NCBI GenBank assembly: GCA_017540175.1
Contig: JAFYBN010000105.1
Span: 1 to 34,275 of the forward strand
Direction of reading: 5' to 3'
Length of the DNA: 34,275 nucleotides
Source: Clostridia bacterium
GTDB taxonomy: Bacteria; Bacillota; Clostridia; Oscillospirales; CAG-272
Shown here: one piece after another, positions 2,176 through 34,275 of the stretch
How positions within the stretch are numbered: the stretch's first letter is position 1
Layout: the number at the start of each line of letters is the position of its first letter
Made by a program: the position numbers and the translations under genes
The notes under the pieces: generated by a model
Database searches by the model: none
Told to the model about the DNA's origin: nothing
What the model saw: only the letters and a program-made list of their open reading frames with translations

Positions 2176-2217
2176 ATGTTTTTGAGATCATGCCGGAAGA
2201 AAAAAGACCAGCTGAGA

Positions 2218-2232: not shown

Positions 2233-2237
2233 CTCAC

Positions 2238-2878: not shown

Positions 2879-2896
2879 AGCTATCACCTCTTTCGT

Positions 2897-2948: not shown

Positions 2949-2998
2949 GAAGCCCCGAAAAGAACACAACCGGAAACCAATTCCATATCGGAGGAAAC

Positions 2999-3046
2999 AT
3001 GAAAAGGAAAAAGAACGAGGACGATGATTCAAAGAAGGAGGACTGA
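2999..3046 (+). CDS. Fifteen-residue charged leader peptide overlapping the relaxase start
   Basis: A tiny ORF (MKRKKNEDDDSKKED) with a strong GGAGGAA ribosome site. Its TGA overlaps the ATG of the relaxase gene, and it carries a second strong site (AAGGAGG) inside its last codons that serves the relaxase. The layout suggests translational coupling or a way to keep ribosomes loaded at the relaxase start. The peptide itself is highly charged and matches nothing I recognise. It may be only a spacer. Confidence 0.4.
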   Translation: MKRKKNEDDDSKKED

Positions 3047-4095: not shown

Positions 4096-4097
4096 TT

Positions 4098-4271
4098 ATG
4101 GCGGAGAAAAAGCTGTCTGCAGCAGAACAGAAAAAGCTGATCGGCGAGGAATTGTGGCTGAGATACTTCAACAGGATTCTGTTCGAAAATGGACTGATCA
4201 CGGAACAGGAGCGCAGCCGCATGAGCGCGAAGATCGACGAGCGTTCGGCGAAAATCAGAAGAGGTCGTTAA
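4098..4271 (+). CDS. Small SHOCT-like accessory protein of the mobile element
   Basis: A 57-residue ORF with the AAGGAGG site of the relaxase 3' end placed 6 nt upstream of its ATG, so it is cotranscribed and coupled to the relaxase. The sequence is helical and charged, with a central LFENGLITEQERSRM segment. That resembles the short SHOCT-like motif (L...G.IT.EE...) of small proteins often encoded next to large serine recombinases in clostridial elements. The role is unknown; it may assist excision or dimerise with a partner. It is short but well supported by its ribosome site and position. Confidence 0.75.
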   Translation: MAEKKLSAAEQKKLIGEELWLRYFNRILFENGLITEQERSRMSAKIDERSAKIRRGR

Positions 4272-4304
4272 TCGGGAACTCGGCTGTGCCGAATATAAAT
4301 CGGA

Positions 4305-4336
4305 AAGAGGTCTGCGGAAGTTTTTGCGGACCTCTT
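4305..4336 (+). terminator. Strong inverted repeat between relaxase operon and recombinase
   Basis: AAGAGGTCTGC (4305-4315) pairs with GCGGACCTCTT (4326-4336), an 11-bp stem with one G-T wobble and a 10-nt loop. It follows the small gene at 4271 and overlaps the -35 box of the recombinase promoter. There is no T-run directly after it, so it may act as a weak terminator, an operator, or both. Confidence 0.5.
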
Positions 4337-4363
4337 GACTTTCATTTCGACTTATGATATATT
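4335..4363 (+). promoter_or_regulatory. Promoter of the serine recombinase
   Basis: TTGACT (4335-4340), a 17-bp spacer and TATATT (4358-4363) stand about 40 nt before the recombinase ATG. Having its own promoter would let the recombinase be expressed separately from the relaxase operon. Confidence 0.6.
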
Positions 4364-4404
4364 TTAGATGATGATTTTGAGAAATTCAAGAAGGGGAAGG
4401 GTTA

Positions 4405-10424: not shown

Positions 10425-13076
10425 TCAGTCCGTATCCTTTCTGAGCCCCTCCGTGATGGGCTCGTCCAGCAGGCGTTTGGTCGGATGCCGGGTCCCGAGC
10501 ACGGAAGCGGCAAAGGCAAAAATGTGCATCGGCAGGCTGAGCGGCAGCAGCAGAAATACCGTCTTCGCGCGCTCGAGGATCTCCCGTCGGCAGAGGCTGT
10601 AGTAAGCCAGCGTATAGGTCAGCGGGTGATCGTGCGCGTCGACGTTGAGGTAATACATCGGGATCGTGAGAATGAGCAGGGAAGCGAGGGAGAGAACGGC
10701 GAGGGTGATCAGGGCGGCAAGCGCGGAGGTCGGATAAGTTCCGATCCGCGTCGTCTTATACACCGCCGCGTCATCCGCGCCCATCTGACGCAGGGCGGCA
10801 AACTCAGCCCTTGCCTTCGACGCCTTCATGCCCGCGTTCATCGAGGTCATCACGAAGAACGCGAGGAGGGTCATTGCGGCGCATACGCCGAGCATGACGA
10901 GCACCGCCCGCGCGCTTTTCAGCTCGTCCGAGGAGAGCACGCGCGTGTTCTTCACCGCATAGCGCATAAGCTCCGTGTCGCGCGCGAACGACTCGACGAT
11001 CTCAGCCGTTTCGTCGTCGCCGAGCGCGGGATTATAATTCACAAGAAGCGTGCGGTGCTCGTCGGCGTCGATCAGCCCGAGTCGCTGTCCGCCCGCGGGG
11101 GAATAGACCATCAGGTATTCCGTTGAGGCAAGACCGTATTTCAAAGCTTTGTCCGACACCGTCCCGACGGCGGTCACGGTGAACGAGGCGCTGTACTCGT
11201 CGTCCGCTGTCTCAGTGATTCCCGACACACTGCGGTAAACCGTGCGCGGCCTCGCAGAGATCACGTCGCCGACGTGGAAACGTTCCTGGTTGTACCAGCC
11301 GTCGATCGAGCTGTTGGGAAGAAGCAGGATCACCCCGTCCTCGCCGGGATCGTCGAGGGACCCCTCCGTCAGGGAGCCGACGAGCAGGGGAAGGCTTTCG
11401 CCGTCCGCGACCGCCGCGTCAAGAAGCCGCCAATACTCCGAGCCGACCTGCTGGGGGATTTGGATCATCGGCTCGTCGGATATTGTAAGTTCGCCTGAGA
11501 CCGTCGTTCTGCGGTTAGAAGTACCGAAGAAGGAATAGGTCCCGACAGACGCGACGCCCGGAGTCCTTTGTATGCGTCCCGCGATTTCGTCGGTAATGGG
11601 GGCTCCTTCACCGACGGAGGAATCCGCGTCGGATAGCACGGAGATCACCGTGTCCGCCGCACCGGGCGTTTTGAAAAGCGCCGCGCTCACCTCGCCGCCG
11701 GAGCGGATCAGCACGAGTACCGCCGCGCCGAGCATCATCGACACGAGGGAAGCGACGACGGCGGGAATGATCTCCGAGGCGATCCGCCGCAGGGTCATGA
11801 GCACGGAGAGGGCGGCGATCTTGTCCTTCAGGCGGGACAGCGCGAGAAAGGAGCGGCGCACGAAGGGCATTTTCGCGCGGAAGGAGCCGGATATCAGCTC
11901 ATACGGTGTCTCCCGCGTGAGCCGCGCGATGCCGAGCCAGGTGAAGAAAGCCGAGAAAAGGGCGAACCGGACGGCAGCGCTCACGAGCAGTTTCCACGGC
12001 ACGGCGAGCGCCGCGGCGGATAAGGACGGCATGGCGGAGAGATAGATTCTCGAAAGGAGCCCGGCGAGCAGGATGACCCCGGGAGAGGCGATCAGCGTGA
12101 GCAGGAGAATCTGCCCGGCGGGGATGGCGCAGAGACCGATCCGGTTCGCGCCGAGGGCGGAGAGGGTACCGAACTCCGGCGCGTGGGACACGCTCCAGTC
12201 CGTCATAAAAGACGCAAGGATCAAGGAGGCCGCGAGGATCACGGGGAGTGTGTACAGCGTGACCGGCGTCGCGGAGTAGCGCTCTTCGTTTTTGATGTTC
12301 ACCGTATTGAGATATTCCGCGTACCGGTTTACGAGATAGCGCGTGCCGTCCGCCGCTTCCCGCGGGTTCTGCGCGTCCGTGGGGATCATGCCGAGGGAGC
12401 GGTAGAGCCGGTCGGCGGCTTTGGCAGCGCCGCGCTCCGTCGCGTGACTGACCCGGATGAAATGGTCGTATTTCAGGATCGCTCCCGTCTCCGCGTCGAT
12501 CGAGGCGGCGTCGGACTGCGAGAGAAAAACGTAGGAGCTGCCCACGCCGGAGATCGTGAAGATGCCCGAGAGCGTCATTTCGCGGTATGTCATCCGCGTC
12601 GCCTTGAAATAGAGATCGTTCGGCTCCCCCGCCTTCAGAAAAGGGCAGGCGCGGTAGAGATCGAGCGACACCGCGACCTCGCCCTCTCCCGGAGCGTGCC
12701 CCCAGATATAGCGTACACCGAGGGTGCGGTCCGTCTCCTCCGTCTCCACGACGATTTTGCCCGGCGCGGACGCGTCGACGCTCGAGGCGAATTTCGAGGA
12801 AGAAGGCACGGCAAAGACGCTTGTCACCGACCTGTCCCGCCCGATCCCCTCGGTGAAATCGTAGAGCTGATCGAGAAAGGCGATATGGTGCGTTCCCGTC
12901 GATGCGCGCTCCACGGAGGCGAGGTAATAGGAATCGAACAGCATGAGCGCGGTCATGACGAGCGTGAGAAGAACGGTCGTGCTGATGAACACTGATCGGT
13001 AGGTGCGCCGCTGCCGGACAAGCTGACGTGAGGAATAGAAGAAAAGACGTCTCAATACCCGTTTGATCCGTTCCAT
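10425..13076 (-). CDS. FtsX-like ABC transporter permease (first of two paralogs)
   Basis: The first gene of the operon, 883 residues, with the same architecture as its downstream paralog: an N-terminal helix, a large outer domain, a central FtsX helix cluster, a second outer domain and a C-terminal FtsX cluster. The start at 13076 (MERIKRV) is chosen because AAAGGAG lies 5-6 nt upstream and the promoter -10 is only ~35 nt away; the longer reading to 13145 would run through the promoter. The outer domains are much more diverged between the two copies than the N-terminal segments, as expected if the pair evolved to contact an asymmetric substrate. The MarR gene next to it is divergent and may regulate it. 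Confidence 0.87.
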   Translation of the reverse strand: MERIKRVLRRLFFYSSRQLVRQRRTYRSVFISTTVLLTLVMTALMLFDSYYLASVERASTGTHHIAFLDQLYDFTEGIGRDRSVTSVFAVPSSSKFASSVDASAPGKIVVETEETDRTLGVRYIWGHAPGEGEVAVSLDLYRACPFLKAGEPNDLYFKATRMTYREMTLSGIFTISGVGSSYVFLSQSDAASIDAETGAILKYDHFIRVSHATERGAAKAADRLYRSLGMIPTDAQNPREAADGTRYLVNRYAEYLNTVNIKNEERYSATPVTLYTLPVILAASLILASFMTDWSVSHAPEFGTLSALGANRIGLCAIPAGQILLLTLIASPGVILLAGLLSRIYLSAMPSLSAAALAVPWKLLVSAAVRFALFSAFFTWLGIARLTRETPYELISGSFRAKMPFVRRSFLALSRLKDKIAALSVLMTLRRIASEIIPAVVASLVSMMLGAAVLVLIRSGGEVSAALFKTPGAADTVISVLSDADSSVGEGAPITDEIAGRIQRTPGVASVGTYSFFGTSNRRTTVSGELTISDEPMIQIPQQVGSEYWRLLDAAVADGESLPLLVGSLTEGSLDDPGEDGVILLLPNSSIDGWYNQERFHVGDVISARPRTVYRSVSGITETADDEYSASFTVTAVGTVSDKALKYGLASTEYLMVYSPAGGQRLGLIDADEHRTLLVNYNPALGDDETAEIVESFARDTELMRYAVKNTRVLSSDELKSARAVLVMLGVCAAMTLLAFFVMTSMNAGMKASKARAEFAALRQMGADDAAVYKTTRIGTYPTSALAALITLAVLSLASLLILTIPMYYLNVDAHDHPLTYTLAYYSLCRREILERAKTVFLLLPLSLPMHIFAFAASVLGTRHPTKRLLDEPITEGLRKDTD

Positions 13077-19919: not shown

Positions 19920-19948
19920 TGGACAAAACGTGAGTTCTGCGGTATAAT
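19920..19948 (+). promoter_or_regulatory. Promoter of the rRNA methyltransferase gene
   Basis: TGGACA (19920-19925), a 17-bp spacer and TATAAT (19943-19948). The -10 box contains the upstream in-frame ATG at 19947, which rules that ATG out as the start. Confidence 0.8.
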
Positions 19949-19982
19949 GAAAAAAACTGTATGTCAAAACGGAGTGACGGAC

Positions 19983-21125
19983 ATGAAGGATGAGAAAAGA
20001 AGCTGTCCGTACGCGGGCAAATGCGGCGCGTGCCAGACCCTGAACCTCGATTACGAATCGGAGCTTTCGATGAAAATGAAGCGCCTGATCCCCCTCCTCG
20101 GACGTTTCGGTCATGTCGACGAGATCCTCGGCGCCGAGAACCCGATCCATTACCGCAACAAGGCGCAGTATCTCTTTTCCTTCAACGGCGGGAGGATCAA
20201 TTTCGGGCTCTACCGCGCGTCGGACGGCGGCATTGTGCATGTCGAACGGTGCCTCATGGAGGACCCGGAGCTCTACTCCCTCGCGCGGTGCGTGCGCAGA
20301 CTGCTTGAGGACTTCGGCGTGAAGGTCTGGGACGGACGGCGGGGATCCCTCCGTCACGTTCTCGCCCGCAAGGGCTTTTCGACGGGCGAGCTTCTCTGCG
20401 CGCTCGTGACAAGGGACGGCGTGACCGACGGGGTGAGATCGCTCGCGAAAGAGCTCGTGAAGCGGTTCCCGAAGCTCGTTTCGGTTTCCGTGATCGTCAA
20501 CGATTCCGATATCCCGCTCTGGACGGAGGGGGAGGAATACGTGCTTCACGGAGAGGGCGCGTTCACGGACGAGCTCTGCGGCCTCACCTTCCGCGTCCCG
20601 ACCAAGGCGTTTTATCAGATCAATCCCGCGCAGACCGAAAAGCTCTATGAGATCGCCGCGGAGCTCGCGGGGATCGGGAGCGAAGACCGCGTCCTCGACG
20701 CCTTCTGCGGCATCGGCACGGTCGGCATCACCGCAGCGAAAAACGGCTGCGCATCGCTCGAAGGCTTCGACGTCAGCCCGGACGCGATCCGGGCCGCCGG
20801 CGAAAACGCGCGGGCGAACGGTGTCAAAAAATCGCACTATCAGGTGAGAAAGGACGCGTCCTTTCTCGTCGGAGCGGGGAAGTTCGACGTGATTTTCGCC
20901 GACCCGCCACGCGCGGGCTGTTCCCGCTCCTTCCTGGAAGCGGTAAAGAACGCCGCGCCTGATCGGTTCGTTTATATCTCCTGCAATCCCGATACCCTCG
21001 CCCGCGACCTCGCGATCCTGAAACCGGCGTTTCAGGTGAAGAAGATCCGGCCGGTGGACCTCTTCCCGGGGACGGAGCATGTGGAGACAGTCGCTGCGTT
21101 GACCCGAGCCCGGGTGGGTAAATGA
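19983..21125 (+). CDS. rlmCD: 23S rRNA (uracil-5-)-methyltransferase, RlmCD/RumA type
   Basis: Transfers a methyl group from S-adenosylmethionine to C5 of specific 23S rRNA uridines. The 380-residue protein has four cysteines for a 4Fe-4S cluster (Cys8, Cys14, Cys17 in CPYAGKCGACQ, and Cys90), the cofactor motif VLDAFCGIGTVG, DPPRAGCS, and the catalytic Cys334 in YISCNPDT. It lacks the N-terminal TRAM RNA-binding domain of the longer members. The ATG at 19983 has GGAG 8 nt upstream; the earlier ATG lies inside the promoter. The closing residues HVETVAALTRARVGK are encoded by a 50-nt stretch that recurs downstream. The 3' end of this gene is a known mobile-element integration site in streptococci. 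The gene itself appears intact. Confidence 0.93.
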   Translation: MKDEKRSCPYAGKCGACQTLNLDYESELSMKMKRLIPLLGRFGHVDEILGAENPIHYRNKAQYLFSFNGGRINFGLYRASDGGIVHVERCLMEDPELYSLARCVRRLLEDFGVKVWDGRRGSLRHVLARKGFSTGELLCALVTRDGVTDGVRSLAKELVKRFPKLVSVSVIVNDSDIPLWTEGEEYVLHGEGAFTDELCGLTFRVPTKAFYQINPAQTEKLYEIAAELAGIGSEDRVLDAFCGIGTVGITAAKNGCASLEGFDVSPDAIRAAGENARANGVKKSHYQVRKDASFLVGAGKFDVIFADPPRAGCSRSFLEAVKNAAPDRFVYISCNPDTLARDLAILKPAFQVKKIRPVDLFPGTEHVETVAALTRARVGK

Positions 21126-21127
21126 TC
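21078..21127 (+). repeat. Methyltransferase-tail repeat, copy A (native 3' end)
   Basis: The last 50 nt of the methyltransferase gene through its stop codon (frame HVETVAALTRARVGK-stop). By hand count it matches copy B at 36 of 50 positions and copy C at 34 of 50, without gaps. The first 25 nt match copy B at 23 positions. Confidence 0.75.
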
Positions 21128-21185
21128 GTGATTTTTCAGTCTCAGGTTTGGAATTGCAATAGGATCATGTAAGGAGGTATGTATA

Positions 21186-22346
21186 TTGGCACAGATACAG
21201 GATTTCATCATTCGGGATGGCGTTTTGAGGAAATATACAGGTACCGGCGGAGACGTTGTTGTACCGGATGAAGTACAGGCAATCGGAGATGTCTTCCAGG
21301 GAAACTCCGCTTTGACGGGCATTGTGCTTCCGGATACGATACAAGCGTTGGATGAATTTGCATTTGCAAACTGCGTTTCATTACGACACGTCAGATTGCC
21401 TGAGAACGCAGACGCGTTGCCGCCAATGGCTTTCTATAATTGCAAAAGTCTTCGGGAAATCGATTGGCCCGAATCCGTGCAGAAGATTCGGCAATACTGC
21501 TTCTTTCATTGCGAGTCCTTGCGTCAGGTGAATATACCGCGGGTTGGGATCATTGATAAGGCCGCTTTTTCCGGCTGCAGGAGTCTGTCTGCGATTTCAT
21601 TTTCGCCAGTCTTGCAGCGCATCGGTGTTCGATCGTTTTATGAATGTGAAGGATTAAGTGAGGTGATTATTCCACAAGGGGTTGAGAGCATCGGAGAGAA
21701 GGCTTTTGCTGGATGTATAAAGCTTAAGCATGTCTCGATCCCAAAGAGTGTACGCCGGATGGGCAAAAGCGTGTTTGCGGATTGTCCGGCTCTGTCCGTG
21801 GAAAGACTTGAATGGGCGGAGCACACGGACGAGGAAAAGATGGATCTGCTCAACAGAAAAGACTATCCTCTTTGTCTTGACCAAAACGACGATAGACCGG
21901 TTTATAATGAAGTATGCCGACGGGAGCGTGTCGAGCGCGGTTTCTGTGAAAGGGACTGGGCAAATATGACGGAGTTTATTCCCGCTTTGCTGGCGGATAT
22001 GCTTCAAGAGTTTTCTGAATTGCACTATGCAGCTCCCGAACACATGACCCATGAGCAGTGGGACAGTATTTTGAGGGAGATGGCGCAGCACTTCCGGAAC
22101 GCAGCAGAGCTGAGCCGGACGGACCTGTCGGACGGTATACTGCAGTCAATCATACCGCAAATACTCGAAAAACCGAGCCTCAAAGGCGCCTTGGAAAGCT
22201 TCCCGCCGGAAATGACAGAAGCTTGGCGGGAAAACAGACTGAGCAACTTAAGCAAGTCTTATGCGATCATGAATAAACTCGCCGACCAGGAAATGCGCGC
22301 CGGTTTTGATATGCTTAAAGAATATATCTGGATGCTTTGGGACTGA
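21186..22346 (+). CDS. BspA-like leucine-rich repeat protein
   Basis: A 386-residue protein. Residues ~20-200 are BspA-type (LRR_5) repeats of about 23 residues with the pattern I...AF..C.SL..V.LP, seen at AFANCVSLRHVRLPE, AFYNCKSLREIDWPE, AFSGCRSLSAISFSP and AFAGCIKLKHVSIPK. The ~180-residue C-terminal part is helical and unrecognised. There is no signal peptide or membrane anchor, so it may stay in the cytoplasm. The start is TTG at 21186, supported by AAGGAGG 8 nt upstream; no better ATG exists in frame. It is flanked by copies A and B of the methyltransferase-tail repeat. Its base composition is more A+T-rich than the genes before it, suggesting later arrival. Confidence 0.8.
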   Translation: MAQIQDFIIRDGVLRKYTGTGGDVVVPDEVQAIGDVFQGNSALTGIVLPDTIQALDEFAFANCVSLRHVRLPENADALPPMAFYNCKSLREIDWPESVQKIRQYCFFHCESLRQVNIPRVGIIDKAAFSGCRSLSAISFSPVLQRIGVRSFYECEGLSEVIIPQGVESIGEKAFAGCIKLKHVSIPKSVRRMGKSVFADCPALSVERLEWAEHTDEEKMDLLNRKDYPLCLDQNDDRPVYNEVCRRERVERGFCERDWANMTEFIPALLADMLQEFSELHYAAPEHMTHEQWDSILREMAQHFRNAAELSRTDLSDGILQSIIPQILEKPSLKGALESFPPEMTEAWRENRLSNLSKSYAIMNKLADQEMRAGFDMLKEYIWMLWD

Positions 22347-22483
22347 ATCGATGCTTGCTGACTTTGTCGGGTCGTAAAGATATGTTCCCGGAGCCAAAAG
22401 GGCGAACAGAAACGTGAATGTGTTCCTCACCGCGATTTTGCGAACCGTCGCGAAAGATGACGATCTGTTTCATTTCCTTGTGC

Positions 22484-22533
22484 CATATGGAAACAGTCGC
22501 TGCGTTGAATCGTGCCGGATCGAGAGAATCATT
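22484..22533 (+). repeat. Methyltransferase-tail repeat, copy B
   Basis: A 50-nt ungapped relative of the methyltransferase 3' end; in that frame it reads HMETVAALNRAGSRESF. It lies in the otherwise gene-free gap between the LRR gene and the DUF6273 gene. The bases just before it (TTTCATTTCCTTGTGC) nearly match those before copy D. Confidence 0.75.
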
Positions 22534-22578
22534 TTGATATCAAGCAAAAAACCAGGAAATCGAAGGAGGTGAAATGAA

Positions 22579-23229
22579 ATGTTATTCAAGCGACTATTTG
22601 GGAAAAAACAGCATACGGGCAAGGTTGATCAAAATAAAATACAGCATACTGAGCTTATACAAAAGCTTGAGTACGGTACATCACTGCAAATCGGACAAAT
22701 TGTTTCATTTGGACATTATTATCAAAGTAAAGACAATGATAAACCTGAGAATATAGAATGGATAGTATTGGATAGAAGTCATAATTCTTATCTGTTAATT
22801 AGTACATATGCATTGGATTCAGTATGTTTTCACCCTCATTATACCCACTGGAAAGACAGTTACTTGCGTAAATGGTTAAATGGAGTTTTTTTGGATCACG
22901 CGTTCTCTACGGAAGAGCAGTCTCATATAAAGAGGCGCATCCTTCCGGACAATGGTCCGGGGATGGACCAAGTGTTTTTGTTAAGCATTGACGAAGCAAA
23001 ACGGTATTTCCGCTCAGATCAGGACAGGCAATGTAAACCAACATGGGTTGCGCTTATGAATGGTTCCGGAGAAGATAAATCCGGAAACTGTTGGTGGTGG
23101 TTGAGATCTCCTGCCAGGGACATAGAATCCACTTCATACGTTTGGAATGATGGTTCTATTCAAGATAATGATGTTGTGATCTATTGCGACCCTCGTGGGG
23201 TTCGGCCTGCTGTGTGGGTTGACTTATAG
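22579..23229 (+). CDS. DUF6273 domain-containing protein
   Basis: A 216-residue protein matching the DUF6273 pattern: EWIVLDRSHNSYLLISTYALD near residue 60, a WKDSYLRKWLN...AFSTEEQ segment near 93, WWWLRSPA near 170 and the closing GVRPAVWVDL. Such domains are common in clostridial proteins of unknown function and resemble the sulfatase-modifying/C-type-lectin-like folds. No signal peptide is visible. The ATG at 22579 has AAGGAGGTG at a suitable distance. The DNA is A+T-rich compared with the chromosome-like genes upstream, and the gene sits between tail-repeat copies B and C. After its TAG stop the same frame stays open for 88 more codons. Confidence 0.82.
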   Translation: MLFKRLFGKKQHTGKVDQNKIQHTELIQKLEYGTSLQIGQIVSFGHYYQSKDNDKPENIEWIVLDRSHNSYLLISTYALDSVCFHPHYTHWKDSYLRKWLNGVFLDHAFSTEEQSHIKRRILPDNGPGMDQVFLLSIDEAKRYFRSDQDRQCKPTWVALMNGSGEDKSGNCWWWLRSPARDIESTSYVWNDGSIQDNDVVIYCDPRGVRPAVWVDL

Positions 23230-23496
23230 AGAAAAGGTATTGATTCAGCTATAGCTCAAAACACCATTAAAAGAACAGTCAATAAGAACTATCATCAAAT
23301 TCCTGCAAGAAACGTATGGGATGACGAAGAAATCAGGCAAAGAAGTTACTTGATTGTTTTTTCAAATTCCGAATTGATCGACTTTTGTAATCAGGTAATA
23401 ATACACACAGAAGATGAAAAGCAGAGCCACCTTCAAAAACGAATCGGAGCTCTGCTTTCGTCCTGTACCGTTTGGGGATCATCTTTTCGATTGTGA
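23230..23496 (+). other. Open frame directly following the DUF6273 stop, possible relic
   Basis: The frame of the DUF6273 gene continues without a stop from 23230 to the TGA at 23494-23496 (88 codons). It has no good start codon or ribosome site. The predicted sequence (for example KRTVNKNYHQIPARNVWDD) looks protein-like, but I recognise no family. It may be a decayed C-terminal extension or part of another broken gene, or chance. From here to 23753 no intact gene is seen, only a hairpin, a promoter and a structured leader. Confidence 0.3.
23418..23458 (+). terminator. Terminator after the DUF6273 unit
   Basis: AAAGCAGAGC (23418-23427) and GCTCTGCTTT (23449-23458) form a perfect 10-bp stem. 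The T-run is short and lies partly in the stem, so it may work in both directions. Confidence 0.6.
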
Positions 23497-23524
23497 CTTC
23501 TTTGCAAACAATGCTCAATAGCTC

Positions 23525-23553
23525 TTGAAAAACCCATCGGATTCATGTATACT
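23525..23553 (+). promoter_or_regulatory. Promoter of the beta-helix adhesin gene
   Basis: TTGAAA (23525-23530), a 17-bp spacer and TATACT (23548-23553). The start codon is about 200 nt further on, leaving a long leader RNA. Confidence 0.65.
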
Positions 23554-23655
23554 TTTATATTATGAGATTGTATGTGTCCCTTGCTTGATCGAATGCTGTT
23601 CATCCCATAACTGCGGCTTCCGGGGATACAGGAAACGGGAATTATCTGCAAAGGA

Positions 23656-23725
23656 GCACTTGTCTATACATCACTCCGTCGGTCCGGGTCCAACCCGGTC
23701 TGAAGTGCGCTGTTTTGCTTTTTCC
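23656..23725 (+). promoter_or_regulatory. Structured leader RNA with terminator-like end upstream of the adhesin
   Basis: Nested dyads: outer GCACTT (23656-23661) with AAGTGC (23703-23708), inner CCGGGT (23684-23689) with ACCCGG (23693-23698). A T-rich stretch (23710-23724) follows directly. This is the shape of an attenuator or a riboswitch expression platform, about 30 nt before the ribosome site. I could not match it to a named riboswitch class. Confidence 0.45.
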
Positions 23726-23753
23726 GGCTGAAATACACAATGGAGGAACGAAC

Positions 23754-24782
23754 ATGAGAATCAGAAAAGCAGTTTTCATCATGCTGATGCTTACGCTGGC
23801 GGTCGGTCTGCTGTCCGTAACGTCGCAGGCGGCGCAGGATGAGCCGATCACCTCTTGGAAACAGCTGCAGGCTGTCATCAGCCAGGCGGAAAACAATGAT
23901 ATCATCTATCTTCAGCAATCGATCACCGCTGATCCGGACGACACGATGCTGGAGGTTACCGGCAACAACAAATCCATCACGCTTGATCTGAACGGATGGA
24001 CGCTTGACCGTGCCCGTATGTCCACCCACAATGACGGTCACGTGATCATCGTTCGCCCGGGCAGCACGCTAACCATTATCGACTCTTCCGGCGACAACAG
24101 CGGCGTCATCACCGGCGGCTGGGCCACAAACGGCGGAGCGATCAACAATCAGGGCAAGCTGATCATCGAAGGCGGCACCTTTGCCGGCAATAAGGCTGAA
24201 AACGGCGGCGCGATCTGCAACAGGAGCTCGCTTACCATCAAGGGCGGTGTGTTTGAGAACAACACGGCGTCCGTCTGCGGCGGCGCGATCTGGTCGGAGG
24301 GCTCCGCGGCAAACAGCGGCGCGGCAAACAGCGGCGCGGCAAACAGCGGCGCGGCAAACAGCGGCGCGGTGATCAGCAACACGGCGATCGTGAACAATAC
24401 CGGGGGCGACGGCGGCGCGATATATCTGACCGAAACGGCGAATTGTACGCTTGAAAACGTTCAGATTAACGGCAACCGGACAACCGAGCACGGCGGCGGC
24501 GGCATCACAAACTACGGTACGCTCACGCTGTCCTACTGCGAGGTGAAGAACAACACCGCAGAAGGCTCCGGCGGCGGCATCTTTAACGGCAAAACGCTGA
24601 ACGCTGACCACACGGAGATTTCCGGCAACACCTCCGGCAATCTCGGCGGCGGCGTCTGCAATTATGGCAGCAGCGGCGAAACTGGGCGAGTCGCAGCCGC
24701 CGATCTGTCGTCTTCGGCAACACCGCCGACGACGGCGGCGGCATCTATAACTGCGACGATCTCATGGGGCAAATCTCCGTAA
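23754..24782 (+). CDS. Secreted beta-helix adhesin, 5' part (frameshifted)
   Basis: The N-terminal 342 codons of a large exported protein: signal peptide (residues 1-27, ending SQA-A), then right-handed beta-helix turns with GGAI/GGGI and N-N repeats (GGAINNQGKLIIEGGTFAGN; GGAICNRSSLTIKGG), as in polymorphic-outer-membrane-type and pectate-lyase-like surface proteins. The ATG at 23754 has TGGAGG 7 nt upstream. After about NYGSSG the reading turns into low-complexity Ala/Thr/Ser and stops at 24782. The other frame (see next entry) resumes typical beta-helix sequence (VFGNTADDGGGIYN) at about 24708. One missing base between ~24668 and ~24708 would join the two into a protein of about 1,290 residues. 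It contains a 15-bp tandem repeat at 24306-24365. Confidence 0.75.
   Translation: MRIRKAVFIMLMLTLAVGLLSVTSQAAQDEPITSWKQLQAVISQAENNDIIYLQQSITADPDDTMLEVTGNNKSITLDLNGWTLDRARMSTHNDGHVIIVRPGSTLTIIDSSGDNSGVITGGWATNGGAINNQGKLIIEGGTFAGNKAENGGAICNRSSLTIKGGVFENNTASVCGGAIWSEGSAANSGAANSGAANSGAANSGAVISNTAIVNNTGGDGGAIYLTETANCTLENVQINGNRTTEHGGGGITNYGTLTLSYCEVKNNTAEGSGGGIFNGKTLNADHTEISGNTSGNLGGGVCNYGSSGETGRVAAADLSSSATPPTTAAASITATISWGKSP
24306..24365 (+). repeat. 15-bp tandem repeat, four copies, inside the adhesin gene
   Basis: GCGGCAAACAGCGGC repeats four times exactly (24306, 24321, 24336, 24351), encoding AANSG four times between two beta-helix turns. The unit is a multiple of three, so changes in copy number would keep the frame. 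Exact identity suggests recent expansion by slippage. Confidence 0.9.
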
Positions 24783-27619
24783 CGCCCATATTGATCGCGC
24801 GCCTCGGCACGGTGACTCTCTCCGGAAACACCGATATCGAAGATAACTGCTCTCTTGTACACGGCGGGGGAGGCATCCGCAACGGCGGTCTGCTGCAGCT
24901 GAAAGATAACATCAACGTAAAGAGCAACACCTGTGCCGGAAACGGCAGCGGGATCTGGAACAACAGTGCACTGGAAATACAGGGTATCATCTGTGTGGAA
25001 GACAATACCAGCAGGGACAAGCCCTTGTCGAACAACGTGTACCTGACGGCGGGAAAGAAGATCACGCTGACCGGCGCGCTGGGCGGCCATATCGGCGTCA
25101 CCTCCGAGATAGCGAACGCGGTTCTGACGTCGGGATACAGCACCTATAACGCCGGTACCGCCCCCGAAGAAATCTTCTTTACAAACGAGGGGTATGTGAT
25201 CCGCATCGACGACAGGGAGATCCGCGCACGGCTGGCGAAAGCGGTAAGCTATTACGATCCCATCGATAAAACTGATAAAACCAAGGAAGAGTGCCTGGTC
25301 GTTGATTCCACCGCGACCATATGGGAGAACGACTGGTACGTGGTCACCGGGTTCGTGCGGATCGGCAGCCGGGTGCAGGTGTCGGGCAATGTAAACCTGA
25401 TCCTCACAAACGGGGCGAATCTTATCGTTCCGAAGGGGATCGAAGTCCCGTTGAACGCAAACTTCACGGTCTGGGGACAGATCGAGGGATACACAACGGA
25501 ATACAGCGAAGAAGATTTCAAAAAGGCGGGTGAACTGTCTACCTTTGAGTTCGTTGACGACGACATGGTAATTCCCGACGAGAAAAATGCGGGGATCGGC
25601 GCGGAGATGCCCGGGAATATCATCGTCAACGGGGGAAAAATCAATGTCCAGGGAGGTCAATATGCGCCGGGGATCGGCATATCCAGTACGTATTATATTC
25701 AAGCAACCGGGATCACGATAAACAACGGATACATCTGGGCGATGGGCGGGAAGAATAGCGCGGGGATCGGCGGCGGCGATGGCGGCACCTGTCCTCCTCT
25801 CGAAATCAACGACGGCGTTGTGATCGCCTTCGGCGCGGGCGATGCGGCGGCGATCGGCGGTGGATACTTCGGGTATTATTATCCGATCACCATTCGGGGC
25901 GGCGAAGTCTACGCGTACGGCTCTCCCTGGACCGCCGGCATCGGCATGGGATGTACCGATGGGGATTATACGGGAATTTTCGCAAGCGACGTAGGCGGCG
26001 GACTGATCGACATTCAGGGCGGCAAAGTCGTCGCGAACTGTGCGGGACATAATAAAGATCATCCCGACTGCGGAGCGCTGGTAAACAGCGAGCACAGAAT
26101 TGCTGAATATGGTTTTAATTTCCATGGCGGCGTGCAAGTATACCCCGCAGCGAAGGTAACATATGTAAAGGATTATATCTTGGACGTTACTTCGCACCCG
26201 GAGCTTCATATCGTTTACAGGGGAACCGCCGCTCATTTCACGGCAGACGAGCTTGCGGAGCGGGCGGGTATTATGATGTCCAGCGATTGGGTGTTTATCG
26301 AGCCCTGCGATCACCCCGGCGCGACGTATACCGTGGTCACCCTTCTCCCTCAAAGCGGTCATATCATGCACTGCACCGCCTGCGATCTGGAGGAGAAAAT
26401 TGAGGTGCACACCTATGACAGAACCGGCAAATGCGCCTTGTGCGGCTGGTATGAGGGGGAAACCGTTACCGTCACGTTCGACTCGGACGGCGGCAGCGCG
26501 GTGGCGTCTCAAACAGTTGTCAGCGGCTATAAAGCAGTAGAACCGGACGATCCCGCGAAGGACGGCTTTGCCTTCAAAGGTTGGTATCAGGTGACGGGCG
26601 GCATGACGGCTGAGACTGCGTTTGACTTTGATACCGCCGTCACCGGGGATATCACGCTGAAAGCGGTATGGGTGACGTCGCCGACGTTCGCGACCGTGAA
26701 CCTCATTCTCTCTGGCAAAATCGGTCTGAGTTTCAATATGTGTCTGCCCGAAATCAACGGCGTGGACTATACGACCAGCTGGATGACCTTCACGATCCCG
26801 CACGGGACGGTCGCGGAGCGCGTCAATTACGCCGATTCGGAAAGCAAGGAAAGCGGAAATCGGGCGTTCGCGGCATATGTGAACTCCATCCAGATGGCGG
26901 AGCCCGTGACGGCGACGTTCCACTACCTGCAAAGCGGCGTCGAAAAAACGGTGACGAAGACCTGTGCCGTGCGCGATTACTTCGATGGGTTCGACGCCGC
27001 CGTCTCCCAAGGCAACGTCACGGACGAGAAAACGATCGCACTGACCCACGCCGTCGCGGACTACGGTCATTACGTGCAGCCGTTCCTTGCAGAGGCGCAT
27101 CAATGGTCGCTGGGCGAGGATTATGCGACGATGACGAAGCACTATACCGAAGCCGCAGACTTCAATATGGAGGCCATCAAAACAGCGGCGGCGGATCATG
27201 CGATCGTGAACACCAACCAAACCAACGGCGACATCGCGGCGGTTACCTACTCCCTGACGCTGGAGAGCGAAACAGCGATCAACGTGTACTTCCGGCCCGC
27301 GCCGGGGTACAGAGGCACTCCGACCGCGACCGTTGACGGCACAGCGGCAGAGGTTGAAACAGTGGGCGGCGTATACTGCGTGCGGATCACAGGCATCGCG
27401 GCGCATAAGCTGAGCGACTCCTATGTGATCGTGCTCACGACCGGGGAAGGGCGCACGGTGACGGTCAGGGTTTCGGCGCTGTCCTACGTCAATACGGCAC
27501 TGAACTATTACAACGACACAACAAACGAATTCCACATGAAGGCGCGGAACGCTGTGGCGGCGATCTACGCGTACTCTCAGGCAGCGGATGCGTACAAAAC
27601 AGCTCATCCCAACGGTTAA
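24764..27619 (+). CDS. Secreted beta-helix adhesin, 3' part with InlB-type repeat
   Basis: A 951-codon continuation of the upstream ORF in another frame; the M at 24764 is only the first in-frame ATG, and coding clearly begins earlier (~24708). Domains in order: remaining beta-helix turns (to ~residue 110); a Gly-rich repeat region with GIGGGDGG-type motifs (~270-410); a Cys pair zone (HCTACDLEE, KCALCGWYEG, ~540-565); an InlB/Listeria-Bacteroides-type B repeat (VTFDSDGGSAV...GFAFKGWY...LKAVW, ~570-640); and a ~300-residue C-terminal domain beginning LILSGKIGLSF. There is no LPXTG sorting motif or C-terminal anchor, so the product is probably secreted or held by non-covalent contacts. Whether the frameshift is a sequencing error or a true break cannot be told here. 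Confidence 0.8.
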   Translation: MGQISVTPILIARLGTVTLSGNTDIEDNCSLVHGGGGIRNGGLLQLKDNINVKSNTCAGNGSGIWNNSALEIQGIICVEDNTSRDKPLSNNVYLTAGKKITLTGALGGHIGVTSEIANAVLTSGYSTYNAGTAPEEIFFTNEGYVIRIDDREIRARLAKAVSYYDPIDKTDKTKEECLVVDSTATIWENDWYVVTGFVRIGSRVQVSGNVNLILTNGANLIVPKGIEVPLNANFTVWGQIEGYTTEYSEEDFKKAGELSTFEFVDDDMVIPDEKNAGIGAEMPGNIIVNGGKINVQGGQYAPGIGISSTYYIQATGITINNGYIWAMGGKNSAGIGGGDGGTCPPLEINDGVVIAFGAGDAAAIGGGYFGYYYPITIRGGEVYAYGSPWTAGIGMGCTDGDYTGIFASDVGGGLIDIQGGKVVANCAGHNKDHPDCGALVNSEHRIAEYGFNFHGGVQVYPAAKVTYVKDYILDVTSHPELHIVYRGTAAHFTADELAERAGIMMSSDWVFIEPCDHPGATYTVVTLLPQSGHIMHCTACDLEEKIEVHTYDRTGKCALCGWYEGETVTVTFDSDGGSAVASQTVVSGYKAVEPDDPAKDGFAFKGWYQVTGGMTAETAFDFDTAVTGDITLKAVWVTSPTFATVNLILSGKIGLSFNMCLPEINGVDYTTSWMTFTIPHGTVAERVNYADSESKESGNRAFAAYVNSIQMAEPVTATFHYLQSGVEKTVTKTCAVRDYFDGFDAAVSQGNVTDEKTIALTHAVADYGHYVQPFLAEAHQWSLGEDYATMTKHYTEAADFNMEAIKTAAADHAIVNTNQTNGDIAAVTYSLTLESETAINVYFRPAPGYRGTPTATVDGTAAEVETVGGVYCVRITGIAAHKLSDSYVIVLTTGEGRTVTVRVSALSYVNTALNYYNDTTNEFHMKARNAVAAIYAYSQAADAYKTAHPNG

Positions 27620-27651
27620 CATACACGGAACCGGTTATAGAGGACAGCATT

Positions 27652-27792
27652 ATGGAAAAGGAAGTACAGGAACCTGCAGAAATCGAAGTCATAGCGTTTG
27701 ATACCGAAGACGTGACAGCGACCGGCGACCTGACTGAGTTGCCTGCACTGACGTTGAAACAAATCTATAAGCATATCGCAAACACGAATTGA
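27652..27792 (+). CDS. 46-residue small protein downstream of the adhesin
   Basis: A short ORF starting 32 nt after the adhesin stop, with AGAGGA 7 nt upstream of its ATG and a hairpin terminator right after it, so it is probably the last gene of the adhesin operon. The sequence is acidic, with the segment EIEVIAFDTEDVTATG followed by LPALTLKQIYKHI. I recall similar short proteins with an (E/D)-V-(I/V)-x-F-x-x-E-D-V-(I/T) core in other Clostridia, usually unannotated; this is from memory only. It could be a secreted peptide precursor, a chaperone for the adhesin, or a regulatory peptide. No function is assigned. Confidence 0.6.
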   Translation: MEKEVQEPAEIEVIAFDTEDVTATGDLTELPALTLKQIYKHIANTN

Positions 27793-27796
27793 CGCC

Positions 27797-27829
27797 GGGC
27801 GGCACATGGATTTTCACCGTGTGCCGCCC
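27797..27829 (+). terminator. Hairpin after the adhesin operon
   Basis: GGGCGGCACA (27797-27806) and TGTGCCGCCC (27820-27829) form a perfect 10-bp GC-rich stem with a 13-nt loop, 5 nt after the small ORF. The following sequence is only moderately T-rich. Confidence 0.7.
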
Positions 27830-27920
27830 GAGTTGTCTTGTTCAATGAATCGTGGTGATACATGAAGGGAACCAAAGGCTTTTCGTCATTCTCCCGGACC
27901 GGATCATCGAAATTCCCCTG

Positions 27921-27952
27921 AGCCGCAGCCTTTCCCGGCTGCGGCTGTTTTA
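27921..27952 (+). terminator. Second strong hairpin, terminator-like
   Basis: AGCCGCAGCC (27921-27930) and GGCTGCGGCT (27937-27946) form a perfect 10-bp stem with a 6-nt loop, followed by GTTTTA. It lies about 90 nt after the previous hairpin and inside a long but unconvincing ORF (27852-28283), which argues against that ORF being real. Confidence 0.7.
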
Positions 27953-28369
27953 CGCCCTGCCGCGGGAGCCGGCGGAGAAGCGGCCGGAGCATCTGGACTT
28001 GCCGCGGAATATCCAAGAAGTGCCGAACAGCGAAGAGTACCTCATAGAATCCGGCATAGAATCCGGCAAAGACGTGCTTCTGCCGCAAGACGCTTTCGGT
28101 GGGCGCGGGAATCGCCTCTCTTGTCGGTCACGGCGGCCTATCCGTACTGTAAATACAAAATCGATGGAATCGCAAGGACGATCGGGATCGATTCGCTCGA
28201 TTCCGATGACAAACAACGTGCTCGGTGAAAATCAGGTCTTGACGCGCGGCTGTAAAAGATGTATGATAAGTATGATAAGATAGACGGATATCACAGCCGG
28301 GACGAAGAAGCTGCCGAAAGGGTTCCGATCGTCGAGGAGGATATGATCTTATGTTTGGACGATGGATCG
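27953..28369. other. Gene-poor stretch with degraded coding traces
   Basis: No intact gene is supported here. A 27-nt stretch near 28047-28074 repeats ATAGAATCCGGC-like units. Short protein-like pieces appear in shifting frames (for example VGAGIASLVGHGG near 28100 and KIDGIARTIGIDSLDSDD near 28155), which suggests a decayed gene with frameshifts. A 52-codon ORF (28259-28417) runs from MYDKYDKIDGYHSRDEE into tail-repeat copy C and ends at its stop codon. I take the whole stretch as debris of earlier insertions. Confidence 0.4.
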
Positions 28370-28419
28370 CACGTTGAATCAGCTGCACCGTTGACTCGAG
28401 CCGGGTCAAGAAAATGATT
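28370..28419 (+). repeat. Methyltransferase-tail repeat, copy C
   Basis: A 50-nt ungapped relative of the methyltransferase 3' end. In that frame it reads HVESAAPLTRAGSRK-stop, with the stop at the same place as in the real gene. It matches copy A at 34 of 50 positions and copy B at 36 of 50 by hand count. Confidence 0.75.
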
Positions 28420-28612
28420 CTGCGGGAGACAGGAGATTGTTATGTATAGTTTAAAGATCGGAACAATTCTTCAAGGAAAATACCAGGTTAAATCCCTTGT
28501 CGGCCGTATTCCTCATGTCGAATACGATTCCAGCTCATACGTCTATCTATGTACTGGACTTAATGGGGCTGATTATACAATCTATGAGTATTATCCTTTT
28601 CATTTTTCGTGC

Positions 28613-28660
28613 CATGTGGAAACGGTTGTCCTTCTTTGTCGGAGTCCGAACACTCAGCCC
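28613..28660 (+). repeat. Methyltransferase-tail repeat, partial copy D
   Basis: Starts with CATGTGGAAACGG, 11 of 13 identical to copy A, then diverges at DNA level while the protein frame (HVETVVLLCRS) still resembles RumA-type C-termini. The flank just before it (TTTCATTTTTCGTGC) nearly matches the flank of copy B, with one base of length difference. Confidence 0.5.
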
Positions 28661-29489: not shown

Positions 29490-29882
29490 ATGAAAAAAAT
29501 CGTTGTTCTGCTCATTTCCGCAATTCTGCTGCTGTCGCTGACAGGCTGCGGCAAGTATTTTTCCAGCTATTCGGCATTAGGTTTCGTTCATTCCAACACA
29601 TCCGATTCGGCTTATATGAGCTTCTATTCCTTTAGCGGCCGCATGGTTTTCAGACTGAAAAGCTCCGGTGAGGGGGACCTGAAATACACGGCCAAACTGG
29701 AGTCCGGAAATGTCGCTGTGTACTATGATTACAACGGAACCAAGCAGGAGCTCTTTTCGATTTCCGACGGAGAGGAGTTTGATTCTCACGGCGGATATGT
29801 GGAATCCGGGACGGTTTATATCATCGTTGAAACGGACGGCGCCTGCCGGGGCGGTGATTTCCGGTTCAGCTTCAACAAATAG
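29490..29882 (+). CDS. Small lipoprotein of unknown function
   Basis: A 130-residue exported lipoprotein: signal MKKIVVLLISAILLLSLTGC with lipobox Cys20. The mature part is rich in Ser, Tyr and Gly, with alternating polar/hydrophobic residues (YTAKLESGNVAVYYDYNG; GTVYIIVETDGACRGGDFRFSF) that suggest a beta-sandwich. The start at 29490 has AGGAG 7 nt upstream; the ATG at 29484 is too close to it. It sits alone between the DUF3267 gene and the carboxypeptidase gene. No family was recognised. Confidence 0.75.
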   Translation: MKKIVVLLISAILLLSLTGCGKYFSSYSALGFVHSNTSDSAYMSFYSFSGRMVFRLKSSGEGDLKYTAKLESGNVAVYYDYNGTKQELFSISDGEEFDSHGGYVESGTVYIIVETDGACRGGDFRFSFNK

Positions 29883-32115: not shown

Positions 32116-34275
32116 ATGAGAATCAAACGCTTGTTCACGGTCCTTTTGGTCCTCTGCCTTGCTGCGGCAGCCGCGCTGTCTGTCGACGCGGCCAGGGCAG
32201 ACGGACCGAAAAATCCCGCAAGTGTCGGGCTCAGCGCTCTTGTGGAACTCGAGGGCATGGACCTCAAATCCGACATGTTTTCATTTGGACTGTACACGCT
32301 CAGCGGCTCGACACTGCAGACTAAAAATAACGACGCGGACGGAAACGTGGTATTTGGCGATCTCACATTCGCCGAGCCCGGCACATACGTCTATCAGGTC
32401 CAGCAAGTCCTCCCCGGGTCACTTGAATCCGGCATGATCTATTCGCTTGAGGTGTACACGGTAACGGTAACGGTTACTGACGACGGAACCGATCATCTCA
32501 AAGCGGAAACTGTCATCAGGAATGACGGCGGCAACGACGTGAAAGTCATGAGTTTTGAGAACACGTACAAAGCAGGGACGATATCCGTAGTGTTTGGCGG
32601 AAAAAATGTCGTTTACGGATTCGACTCGTGCGACGAACCGTTCTATTTCACGCTTTATGAAGGCGCAAAGGAGCTCCGGACAAAGTCCGCCATAGGAACG
32701 GGCGATTATCGGTTCGATCCCATCGTCTACGAAGAAGGGGGCGAGCATAATTACACGGTCTGCCTGTCATCGACGAACGTTAATACGGATTACGTTTACA
32801 GCGATAAAATATTCGAAATCAATGTTGTTGTAACCGATAATATGGCGGGTACACTCTCCGCGAAGGTGACGGGGGCAAAAAGTAACGGCACGGGTCTTGA
32901 TTTTGAGAGTTTTTACGTGTGCGTCAATGTCATGTGTGTCGACGCGGAGGACGGTACGCCGCTCAGCGGGGGTAAGTTCCAGCTTTTCGACGGGGAAGGC
33001 AGTGTCGTTGACGAGTGGACAGGCACCGTGCAAGCCCACAAGAGCAAGAGCTTGAAGATGGACGAGACGTACACTCTGAAGGAGAAATCGGCGCCGGGAG
33101 GCTATATCATTGCCGACGAGACCACCTTCAGCATTGACGATACCGGCAAGGTAACGAGCTCCGGCACAACCACGACCGATAAAGAAGGCCGCACCGTGCT
33201 GCTGGTCGAAAACGTAAAGATGCCGGAAGCTACAGTGGTCCTGACCGGCACCGTGAACCTGGTAGGCCGTGATCTGACCGAAGACGAATTCACCTTCAAT
33301 GTGTGGGAGGGCGAGGCCCTTGTCGCAATCGGTAAAAATACCGACGACGGCAGGATCGTCTTTGATACGATCAAATACACTACGGACGACGCCGGTCGTC
33401 ATGTCTACACCGTGACCGAGGATGACAACGGTGACAGCACCGTCATTTCCGACGACAGTGAGATCCAAGTGACCGTGGAGGTGACGACGGGCAGTACCGA
33501 CAGCCTGGAGGCGAAGATCATCGAGGGCGAAAACAGTATAATCTTTACCAATACTCAGGTGAACGTGGTCAAGAAGGATCTCGACGGCAGCATGCTTTCC
33601 GACGCGGATCTGCAGGTGCTTGACAGCGAAGGCGACGTTGTGGATTCCTGGATCTCGGATAAGAACGTTGGGATTCACGCTGTTGAGGGTCTGGAATACG
33701 GTAAGGAATATACCCTGCACGAAGTCTCCGCGCCTGAAGGGTTCATTCTCTCTGACGATATCACCTTTACCGTCAATAAGGACGGCAGCATCGACTGCGA
33801 CAGCCTGGATGCCGACGGCAGCCTGCTGATGATCGATGTCAAGACGCTGGTGAAGGTCAGCGTGACCGATATCGCCGACGGAGCTGAGCTCGAAGGCGCG
33901 ACGATCCAGGTCCTCGACAAGGACGGGAACGTCGTAGAAGAATGGGTCTCTTCAGACGAAGCCCATGAGATCAAAGGCCTGAAGACGGGCGTGGAATACA
34001 CGCTCGAGGAAACCGTCGCGCCGGACGGATATACCGTCGCGTCTCAGACCAAGTTCAGCCTCGATGAAACGGGAAAGGTCACCTCGACCGGAACCGTGAC
34101 CGAAGACGGCGTCATGCTCGTGGAGAACGCGAAAACCGGCGTGAAGGTCAGCGTGACTGATATCGCCGACGGGGCCGAGCTCGAGGGCGCGACGATCCAG
34201 GTCCTTGACAAGGATGGAAAAGTCGTCGAAGAATGGGTCTCATCAGACGAAGCCCATGAGATCAAAGGGCTGAAG
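32116..34275 (+). CDS. Large secreted pilin-like adhesin with SpaA/Cna-B repeats (3' end outside window)
   Basis: The first 720 codons of a surface protein; the frame is still open at the window edge. A signal peptide (residues 1-~29) is followed by modules of two kinds. The first are pilin/isopeptide-type domains (FctA/Spy0128-like), for example MFSFGLYTLSG...VMSFENTYKAG and EFTFNVWEGEALVAIG...IIFTNTQ. The second are SpaA/prealbumin-like domains of the form VxVxxxDGTPLSGGKFQLFD...TYTLKEKSAPGGYIIADE, repeating to the end. The last 97-residue unit (VKVSVTDIADGAELEG...) starts a second, nearly identical copy at 34141. Such modules often carry internal Lys-Asn isopeptide bonds, and full-length proteins end in a sortase motif, which cannot be checked here. 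The ATG has CGGAGG 6 nt upstream. Confidence 0.88.
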   Translation, partial: MRIKRLFTVLLVLCLAAAAALSVDAARADGPKNPASVGLSALVELEGMDLKSDMFSFGLYTLSGSTLQTKNNDADGNVVFGDLTFAEPGTYVYQVQQVLPGSLESGMIYSLEVYTVTVTVTDDGTDHLKAETVIRNDGGNDVKVMSFENTYKAGTISVVFGGKNVVYGFDSCDEPFYFTLYEGAKELRTKSAIGTGDYRFDPIVYEEGGEHNYTVCLSSTNVNTDYVYSDKIFEINVVVTDNMAGTLSAKVTGAKSNGTGLDFESFYVCVNVMCVDAEDGTPLSGGKFQLFDGEGSVVDEWTGTVQAHKSKSLKMDETYTLKEKSAPGGYIIADETTFSIDDTGKVTSSGTTTTDKEGRTVLLVENVKMPEATVVLTGTVNLVGRDLTEDEFTFNVWEGEALVAIGKNTDDGRIVFDTIKYTTDDAGRHVYTVTEDDNGDSTVISDDSEIQVTVEVTTGSTDSLEAKIIEGENSIIFTNTQVNVVKKDLDGSMLSDADLQVLDSEGDVVDSWISDKNVGIHAVEGLEYGKEYTLHEVSAPEGFILSDDITFTVNKDGSIDCDSLDADGSLLMIDVKTLVKVSVTDIADGAELEGATIQVLDKDGNVVEEWVSSDEAHEIKGLKTGVEYTLEETVAPDGYTVASQTKFSLDETGKVTSTGTVTEDGVMLVENAKTGVKVSVTDIADGAELEGATIQVLDKDGKVVEEWVSSDEAHEIKGLK
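33850..34275 (+). repeat. 291-bp tandem repeat in the adhesin gene (second copy cut by window end)
   Basis: One unit runs 33850-34140 and a second begins at 34141 and continues past the window edge. Each encodes a 97-residue SpaA-type domain. The overlapping 135 nt are almost identical, with a handful of mostly silent changes, so the array is recent or kept similar by recombination. Confidence 0.85.

Follow-up and report, generated by a model that had tools for sequence, protein, structure and literature searches.

A probable decayed tandem array of core-bounded units behind rlmD in a Clostridia bacterium

The window considered here is a stretch of 34,275 nucleotides (nt), contig JAFYBN010000105.1 of assembly GCA_017540175.1, from a Clostridia bacterium of the lineage CAG-272 whose genome is 93.5% complete. 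It carries at 19947..21125 the gene rlmD (also called rumA) of the 23S rRNA (uracil(1939)-C5)-methyltransferase (TIGR00479, 263 bits against a cut-off of 183.6), and within the genus the ten best rlmD matches have 54-64% amino-acid (aa) identity with this protein. Behind this anchor gene the rlmD end recurs as a ladder of copies with other genes between them, all on the plus strand like rlmD itself. Copy 1 (21078..21127) is the present rlmD tail and begins with the core CATGTGGA; copy 2 lies at 22484..22533, copy 3 at 28370..28419 with the core CACGTTGA, and copy 4 at 28613..28642, again with CATGTGGA. Copies 1 to 3 have right halves of the tail type named A1, and copy 4 bears a tail of another type (HVETVVLLCR). 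G-numbers denote genomes and L-numbers loci, and B1, B3 and B5 are types of unit end.

The initial annotation had claimed a ladder of 50-nt copies with 36, 34 and 36 matches, and these ungapped counts were confirmed (36 for 21078 against 22484, 34 for 21078 against 28370, 36 for 22484 against 28370), the strongest unrelated places in the window reaching only 26, 27 and 29 matches. The likeness has a sharp left border at the CAY codon of HVET (1-2 of 10 positions agree to the left, 6-8 of 10 to the right) and fades about 55 nt past that codon. A matrix built from 31 tails of other loci and run over the whole window, both strands, places 28613 (24.8 bits), 21078 (23.4), 28370 (17.8) and 22484 (15.8) as the top four, the next position scoring 10.5. 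Because of this first rank the partial copy that had been proposed to start at 28613 is real, though its right half is not of the A1 type and stays at background level against this tail type of copies 1-3. The right halves of copies 1, 2 and 3 are the three best of 5531 GA-anchored windows compared with six A1 tails of other genera (25, 23 and 25 matches of 35; next window 20; copy 4, 14). When a profile of the three copies was searched against the organism's own genome, these three were found at E <1e-12 and otherwise two matches only, at E 0.58 and 0.77. Since all three strong matches fall inside the window, a dispersed repeat in this genome is ruled out, and both objections foreseen earlier, chance similarity and dispersed repeat, fail on the match counts, the matrix ranks and the profile search.

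Unit 1 of the window (21086-22491) contains the gene of a 386-aa BspA-type leucine-rich-repeat (LRR) protein (21186..22346; LRR_5, E=8.7e-44), which begins 108 nt past the core start, is preceded by AAGGAGG and has a GC content of 0.49 against 0.62 in rlmD. The right end of the unit, GTTTCATTTCCTTGTGC at 22467..22483, is of the B3 type, with 15 of 17 nt as in L216 (genome G132), where it also stands at a ladder core; over 90 nt, the score of the left side of copy 2 against L216 was reached by 3 of 3000 shuffles. With A1-type right halves and the L216-like left end at copy 2, unit 1 has the full cassette form, and it is the only unit of the window that fits the single-gene, one-direction form with a 3' site. 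Unit 2 (to 28377) has at its start the gene of a 216-aa DUF6273 protein, counted as cargo (22579..23229; PF19789, E=6e-20; GC 0.40; 95 nt past the core start). It is followed by a gene of a beta-helix/List_Bact repeat surface protein (23715..27619, from open reading frames (ORFs) and family matches; GC 0.57, host-like), which is probably broken because it is open in two different frames (23715-24782 and 24764-27619), and at the end of the unit by a recombinase relic. Unit 3 comprises 243 nt, and the ORF list gives in it the start of a frame reading into copy 4 (28442..28612), with no family match and no solved-structure match; a by-eye impression of a kinase-like start gained no support in searches and was dropped. 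The right end of unit 3, CTTTTCATTTTTCGTGC at 28596..28612, is B3-like. In comparisons of the left sides with L216, the numbers of two-base-block shuffles out of 3000 that reached the score were 3 for copy 2, 5 for copy 4, 72 for copy 1 and 1286 for copy 3. The similarity between the stretches before copies 2 and 4 is by itself unconvincing (84 of 2000 and 395 of 3000 shuffles) and was strengthened by L216. The GC content of unit 1, the DUF6273 part and unit 3 is 0.39-0.49, against 0.62 in rlmD and 0.57 in the beta-helix part.

The relic at the end of unit 2 (28187..28369, reading into copy 3) represents the 3'-terminal part of a gene for a large serine recombinase and was found by tblastn with the recombinase of G022 and others. 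Its pieces at 28187-28276 (best E 6e-6) and 28319-28399 (best E 5e-7) match residues 428-457 and 532-558 of the open frame of the G022 enzyme, and the two are separated by stops and a deletion. As the relic stands directly left of copy 3, this copy is, judged from the sequence, a junction of a recombinase gene and an rlmD tail. The earlier statement that no recombinase is present within the array holds for intact genes, of which the window array has none, and has to be amended for this relic. The 47-aa recombinase end is present in 8 of 196 family genomes, the one under study among them, and the open frames measure about 560 aa where complete. The annotation had also advised looking for recombinases next to copies elsewhere, and those of G022, G014, G050, G076 and G169 do terminate in rlmD-like tails. 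In G022, a genome of the same genus, a 560-aa serine recombinase frame ends at the core, with a primase and a relaxase lying between it and the second rlmD. The next stretch past this frame is a single unit of 1.47 kb, which contains a NUMOD4/HNH frame and has a degenerate core as its far border. This recombinase obtains 222 bits with the CcrB model, whose cut-off is 900, so it is related and far below the threshold. A viral-collection sequence, L176 (IMGVR_UViG_2639763136_000003), has at 12420-12668 a serine-recombinase frame which reads through the core and on into a long tail, as would be expected of an excised state. The window itself holds at 147-6177 another element with a P4-type primase, a MobV relaxase and a serine recombinase (112 bits against the same CcrB cut-off of 900). 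Its primase and relaxase, which match the P4-primase and MobV models, share 82% and 85% identity with their counterparts in the element at the second rlmD of G022, and since the recombinases are only 26% identical, the integration module has probably been swapped.

The core consists of 8 nt, CAYGTNGA, which spell His-Val-Glu near the RlmD C-terminus. Over nine recombinase-type junctions, counting the cassette end G196 1428 as one, columns 1, 2, 4, 5, 7 and 8 are constant, two or three letters occur at columns 3 and 6, and columns 9-20 vary except 14. When five rlmD copies that bear related long tails are compared, the variable columns are 3, 5 and 6, and columns 7-32 are constant bar one base (13). 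These two patterns mirror each other, so the crossover most probably falls in the GA of the Glu codon, two bases that do not vary among 25 aligned tails. Related long tails at the rlmD of L041, L045, L046, L038 and L036 (G009, G002, G014, G023 and G022) look element-borne; they (such as ..LNAKQHIEINLDMDELDLT..HFGMI) are in frame in four, the contig end cutting that of G002, and interrupted in G022:C8. At L079 (G010:C105) a 63-nt rlmD-tail-like stretch forms a head-to-tail repeat in one frame, at 5671 and 5734.

The window is not the only place of this kind. The rlmD 3' end carries one to four core-bounded units in the window's genus and in six other genera of the family, and in a seventh other genus units were found on contigs without rlmD. 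In G306 (L220, minus strand) the cores lie at 7358 (rlmD), 8065, 9424, 9858 and 10493, in G213 (L218) at 8520 (rlmD), 9990, 10564, 11395 and 12246, and in G028 (L211) at 7963 (rlmD), 9158, 10025 and 11018; there are four cores in G080 (the left half of one is degenerate), three in G258, and two each in G230, G186 and G340. A profile of the window copies gave matches at E<=0.02 in 10 of 395 family genomes, the window's own included, and chance matches may be among the weak ones. In all 21 closed units of other genera (10 contigs, 9 genomes) the longest ORF is on the strand of the core, which is the rlmD strand wherever the contig has rlmD (two contigs lack it). These units have a median length of 867 nt (434-1470), with medians of 90 nt from core to ORF and 114 nt from ORF end to the next core, and only one of them, the first of G028, contains two substantial ORFs.

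Their commonest end, B1 (..TTTTTATTCACGCTATTGTCCCAAGG before the core), when up to 3 mismatches were allowed, occurs in 12 of the 395 family genomes, belonging to 7 of 71 genera, and has no match in the controls. It stands on an rlmD contig in ladder order in 8 of the 12 genomes, from 6 genera (7 by tblastn, G340 by reading). As to the remaining B1 genomes, the match of G262 has a broken core and was excluded before counting, and the other three lie near contig ends; the sites of G145, G292 and G132, near contig ends without rlmD, were excluded from the rlmD-anchored count. Seventeen B1 ends align without gaps, an alignment of 19 longer pieces puts some gaps further out, and the conserved 3' end of the units amounts to about 100 nt. 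The B1 ends have no codon periodicity; on this ground, with phage and plasmid matches weak (E 0.7 or worse), the idea that B1 is the coding end of a recombinase gene was rejected.

The cargo, scanned partly from the last, open units, includes GNAT acetyltransferases, S-adenosylmethionine (SAM) methyltransferases, an alpha/beta hydrolase, radical SAM, VanZ-like, HNH-repeat and tetratricopeptide repeat (TPR) proteins, and for 8 of 20 cargo proteins no Pfam family was found at E<=0.001. No integrase family occurs among the scanned cargo proteins (tyrosine integrases were not searched genome-wide), and defence models gave no match for eight tested proteins, two of them from the window. Related cargo proteins recur at loci of different genera. 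One single-gene unit without a recombinase is even common to G012, of the window's genus, and G196, of another, with 94.5% identity over 1307 nt. This 1.31-kb unit extends from 12 nt after the start of the first core to 1 nt past the second; outside it, 3-5 of 20 positions agree on the left side and 8-10 of 20 on the right once the first 20 nt are passed. It stands behind rlmD in G012, where the contig has only the rlmD 3' part, and behind a recombinase end in G196, and its ORF of 374-378 aa has no Pfam family. Its right end, RLSLDNDT followed by HVE, duplicates the final codons of the recombinase gene, where EISLDNDT is followed by QVE; both end at the core. Two more cores follow it in G196 with another left end, B5, which is also present in G050. 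Being 94.5% identical in two genera and bounded by cores, the unit seems to have spread in its reduced, recombinase-less form. Cross-genome similarity also ends 7 to 23 nt after the first base of the core in five pairs (first core base = 0, core = 0 to 7): G306/G258, different genera, 417 nt, last aligned base 8; G080/G306, different genera, 151 nt, base 7; G258/G230, 10.7 kb through rlmD and the first cassette, base 14 at the second core; G080/G213, 6.2 kb, base 22 at the rlmD core; and G145/G292, 151 nt, base 23.

The surroundings of rlmD in relatives point to an insertion hot spot. In G003 the gene is directly followed by one resembling, by eye, an isoprenylcysteine methyltransferase, and in G023 there come a recombinase end, a displaced tail, then a lipoprotein and a relative (51.5% identical) of that G003 gene. 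The window array is followed by a DUF3267 gene and the same small lipoprotein (29490..29882, 70% aa identity to L077) as behind the displaced tail of G023. The array sits between rlmD and genes which in relatives follow rlmD or a displaced rlmD tail. Among 17 genus genomes of 25 with a nearly full rlmD (the partial matches of G012 and G021 being excluded), the contig ends within 600 nt downstream of the gene in eight and upstream in one. A search of named genome contigs for rlmD gave 45 loci, of which one spans the protein (L110, SVUC01000073.1, 'Oscillospiraceae bacterium').

In our opinion the locus is probably a decayed tandem array, in which units were inserted successively into the rlmD 3' end by recombination of the large-serine-recombinase type that also moves recombinase-less cassettes. 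The evidence consists of core-bounded, mostly single-gene units, a unit cut at the core in two genera, a unit end which copies a recombinase end, and the relic in the window. A circular unit, either a recombinase-bearing element or a recombinase-less cassette, would recombine with the core; rlmD would gain the start of the unit as a substitute C-terminus (HVET..LxR) with a stop, and the former tail would be displaced to the far end of the unit. By repetition a ladder would arise, with the newest unit beside rlmD and the original tail outermost, and copy 4 would be this oldest, displaced tail. As the gene of a unit lies just behind the core (about 70-110 nt) and in the same direction, it could be read from the rlmD promoter. 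We infer the circular form, the order of insertion and the expression from rlmD; that a recombinase may act in trans on units with sites only is suggested by the shared cores and by the cassette end copying the end of a recombinase gene. The chances seem to us evenly balanced that this is a separate mobile gene-cassette platform of gut Clostridia, in which enzyme-less one-gene cassettes are gathered and exchanged at rlmD by serine recombinases supplied in trans; each insertion would then give RlmD new final codons, and the tails left behind would form a time-ordered record. The successive insertions proposed in the initial annotation gain support from the core-mapped crossover, the relic at copy 3 and the gene neighbourhood. 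Its preferred view of elements that had lost their mobility genes agrees with the relic, whereas the regular, single-gene, recombinase-less units of other genera favour cassettes. The cassette-collecting system which it placed second suits the kind of array (single-gene units, conserved ends, a two-genus unit), with the reservation that the window also holds an element relic; since both signs are present, element decay and cassette gathering both seem to have acted here.

The strongest competitor is a plain accretion of integrative and conjugative elements (ICEs) and integrative and mobilizable elements (IMEs) decayed to cis-mobilizable elements (CIMEs), every unit having once been a full element with no mobility of recombinase-less cassettes. 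Tandems with attachment (att) sites are described in the cited part of PMC5704250, a recombinase relic terminates unit 2 of the window, and a full element lies at the second rlmD of G022. The units of other genera are, however, regular in size and spacing, nearly all have one substantial ORF and their ends are conserved, and the 94.5% identical G012/G196 unit, bounded by cores and without a recombinase, weakens the accretion model further; we regard it as unlikely. Mobility of the integron type, where a tyrosine integrase moves cassettes via folded attC-like 3' sites, would suit mostly single-gene, one-direction cassettes with a conserved 3' end of about 100 nt. It is very improbable in view of the 17 aligned B1 ends, which have no conserved attC-like hairpin (4 pairs, no compensatory change, -1.27 kcal/mol); five B1 single strands were folded as DNA, of which two beat nearly all shuffles (0 and 1 of 200) and three do not, and the core position is the same as in the serine-recombinase element. 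That the rlmD end was duplicated through homologous or illegitimate recombination, with no site-specific step, has a possible example in G019 (L078, C50), where a 202-nt rlmD-end copy on another contig (645-846) starts 6 nt before the core; this copy comprises the rlmD end and about 150 nt downstream and is 89.6% identical to the rlmD locus. Yet the left border falls at the same place in unrelated genera, units common to several genera stop at the core and successive cores bear different tails, which makes such duplication scarcely credible.

Several points weigh against the array of serine-recombinase cassettes as we propose it. All loci come from draft assemblies, many broken within the array, with one genome per species. 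The invariance of GA is partly by choice because the tails were selected by HVE. In the window, unit 2 (5.9 kb) is not single-gene and unit 3 is truncated, for which reason the window alone would not reveal a cassette array; its B3 assignment rests on one other locus picked after the fact, and the left side of copy 1 is also fairly similar to that locus (72/3000 shuffles). B1 is absent from the 20 genus genomes searched, the window's included, and the B1, B3 and B5 ends are not evidently derived from recombinase genes. The enzyme for B1 was not found: tblastn with two serine recombinases gave no recombinase gene at 13 array loci, and the array genomes yielded no recombinase whose tail is rlmD-like; of the 13 genomes searched there (the 12 B1 genomes and the window's own), 9 contain PF07508 matches, 27 in total. 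A tail scan of these 27 loci, which extend up to 1.5 kb past the match, gave a single weak antisense match, and at three of them the printed ORF is probably not the recombinase. Sequence of the same species was not found in viral contigs. In other searches, exact patterns had no match in viral and genome contigs, and the motif TTYNNNTGYCAYRTNGARACNGT occurred in 2 of 295 genomes with one control match.

Integrons are known to hold mobile single-gene cassettes in ordered arrays and employ a tyrosine integrase; their cassettes are mostly single-gene, in one orientation behind a fixed anchor, and have a conserved 3' site. The arrays at rlmD likewise hold mostly single-gene, one-direction cassettes with a conserved 3' end behind an anchor, but there is no conserved attC-type fold in B1, and they are anchored on a housekeeping gene's end. 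The nearest relatives in terms of site are ICEs and IMEs of streptococci that insert with a single serine integrase in rumA (ICE_Spy2096_rumA); according to the cited portions of PMC4701971, rumA and the integrase gene have a short repeat in common and integration reciprocally exchanges their 3' ends. This parallel, drawn already in the initial annotation, is right in kind: here too the crossover is in the 3' part of rlmD and the recombinase C-terminus is exchanged, as seen at the G022 element and at copy 3. Unlike these full elements, the array units have no integrase or transfer module of their own, though the G022 element has them; for streptococcal insertion that paper notes a change of reading frame, while the His-Val-Glu frame is kept here, and the same portions of PMC4701971 do not describe recombinase-less single-gene tandem units. 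RlmD has also been noted beside prophages in Erysipelothrix and others (PMC12785378, in the part cited). With CIMEs and ICE-IME accretion of the ICESt1 type, described in the extract used of PMC5704250 as tandems in which att sites are present and recombination genes missing, the array units have in common the retained att sites and the absence of recombination and transfer genes; they differ in being small, regular and mostly of one gene, with conserved ends and at least one unit common to two genera. The staphylococcal (SCC) and enterococcal (ECC) cassette chromosomes use serine recombinases and att sites of about 50 nt at the rlmH 3' end and leave remnants (PMC6222049, sections cited). They resemble the present case in the serine recombinase, the end of an RNA methyltransferase gene as att site and the remnants. 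The gene here is rlmD (TIGR00479) and not rlmH, ccrAB lies there inside large multi-gene elements, and the recombinases stay below the CcrB cut-off as given above. Searches of PubMed Central, some of them aimed at arrays, brought up no description of arrays like those at rlmD. If our reading is true, it would mean a second enzymatic solution for such arrays, with a housekeeping-gene anchor; uncultured Clostridia of the gut and the rumen would have a new means of transferring single genes, and assemblies breaking at rlmD would be accounted for. Since the core is defined, along with several unit ends and a candidate recombinase, the array idea is readily testable.

Two minor features of the window may be added. 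Within the mobile element at 147-6177, two small adjoining ORFs on the minus strand (2238-2887) look by eye only like a VapC/VapB toxin-antitoxin pair, and at the contig end a 171-nt direct repeat, 84% identical, occupies 33814-33984 and 34105-34275.

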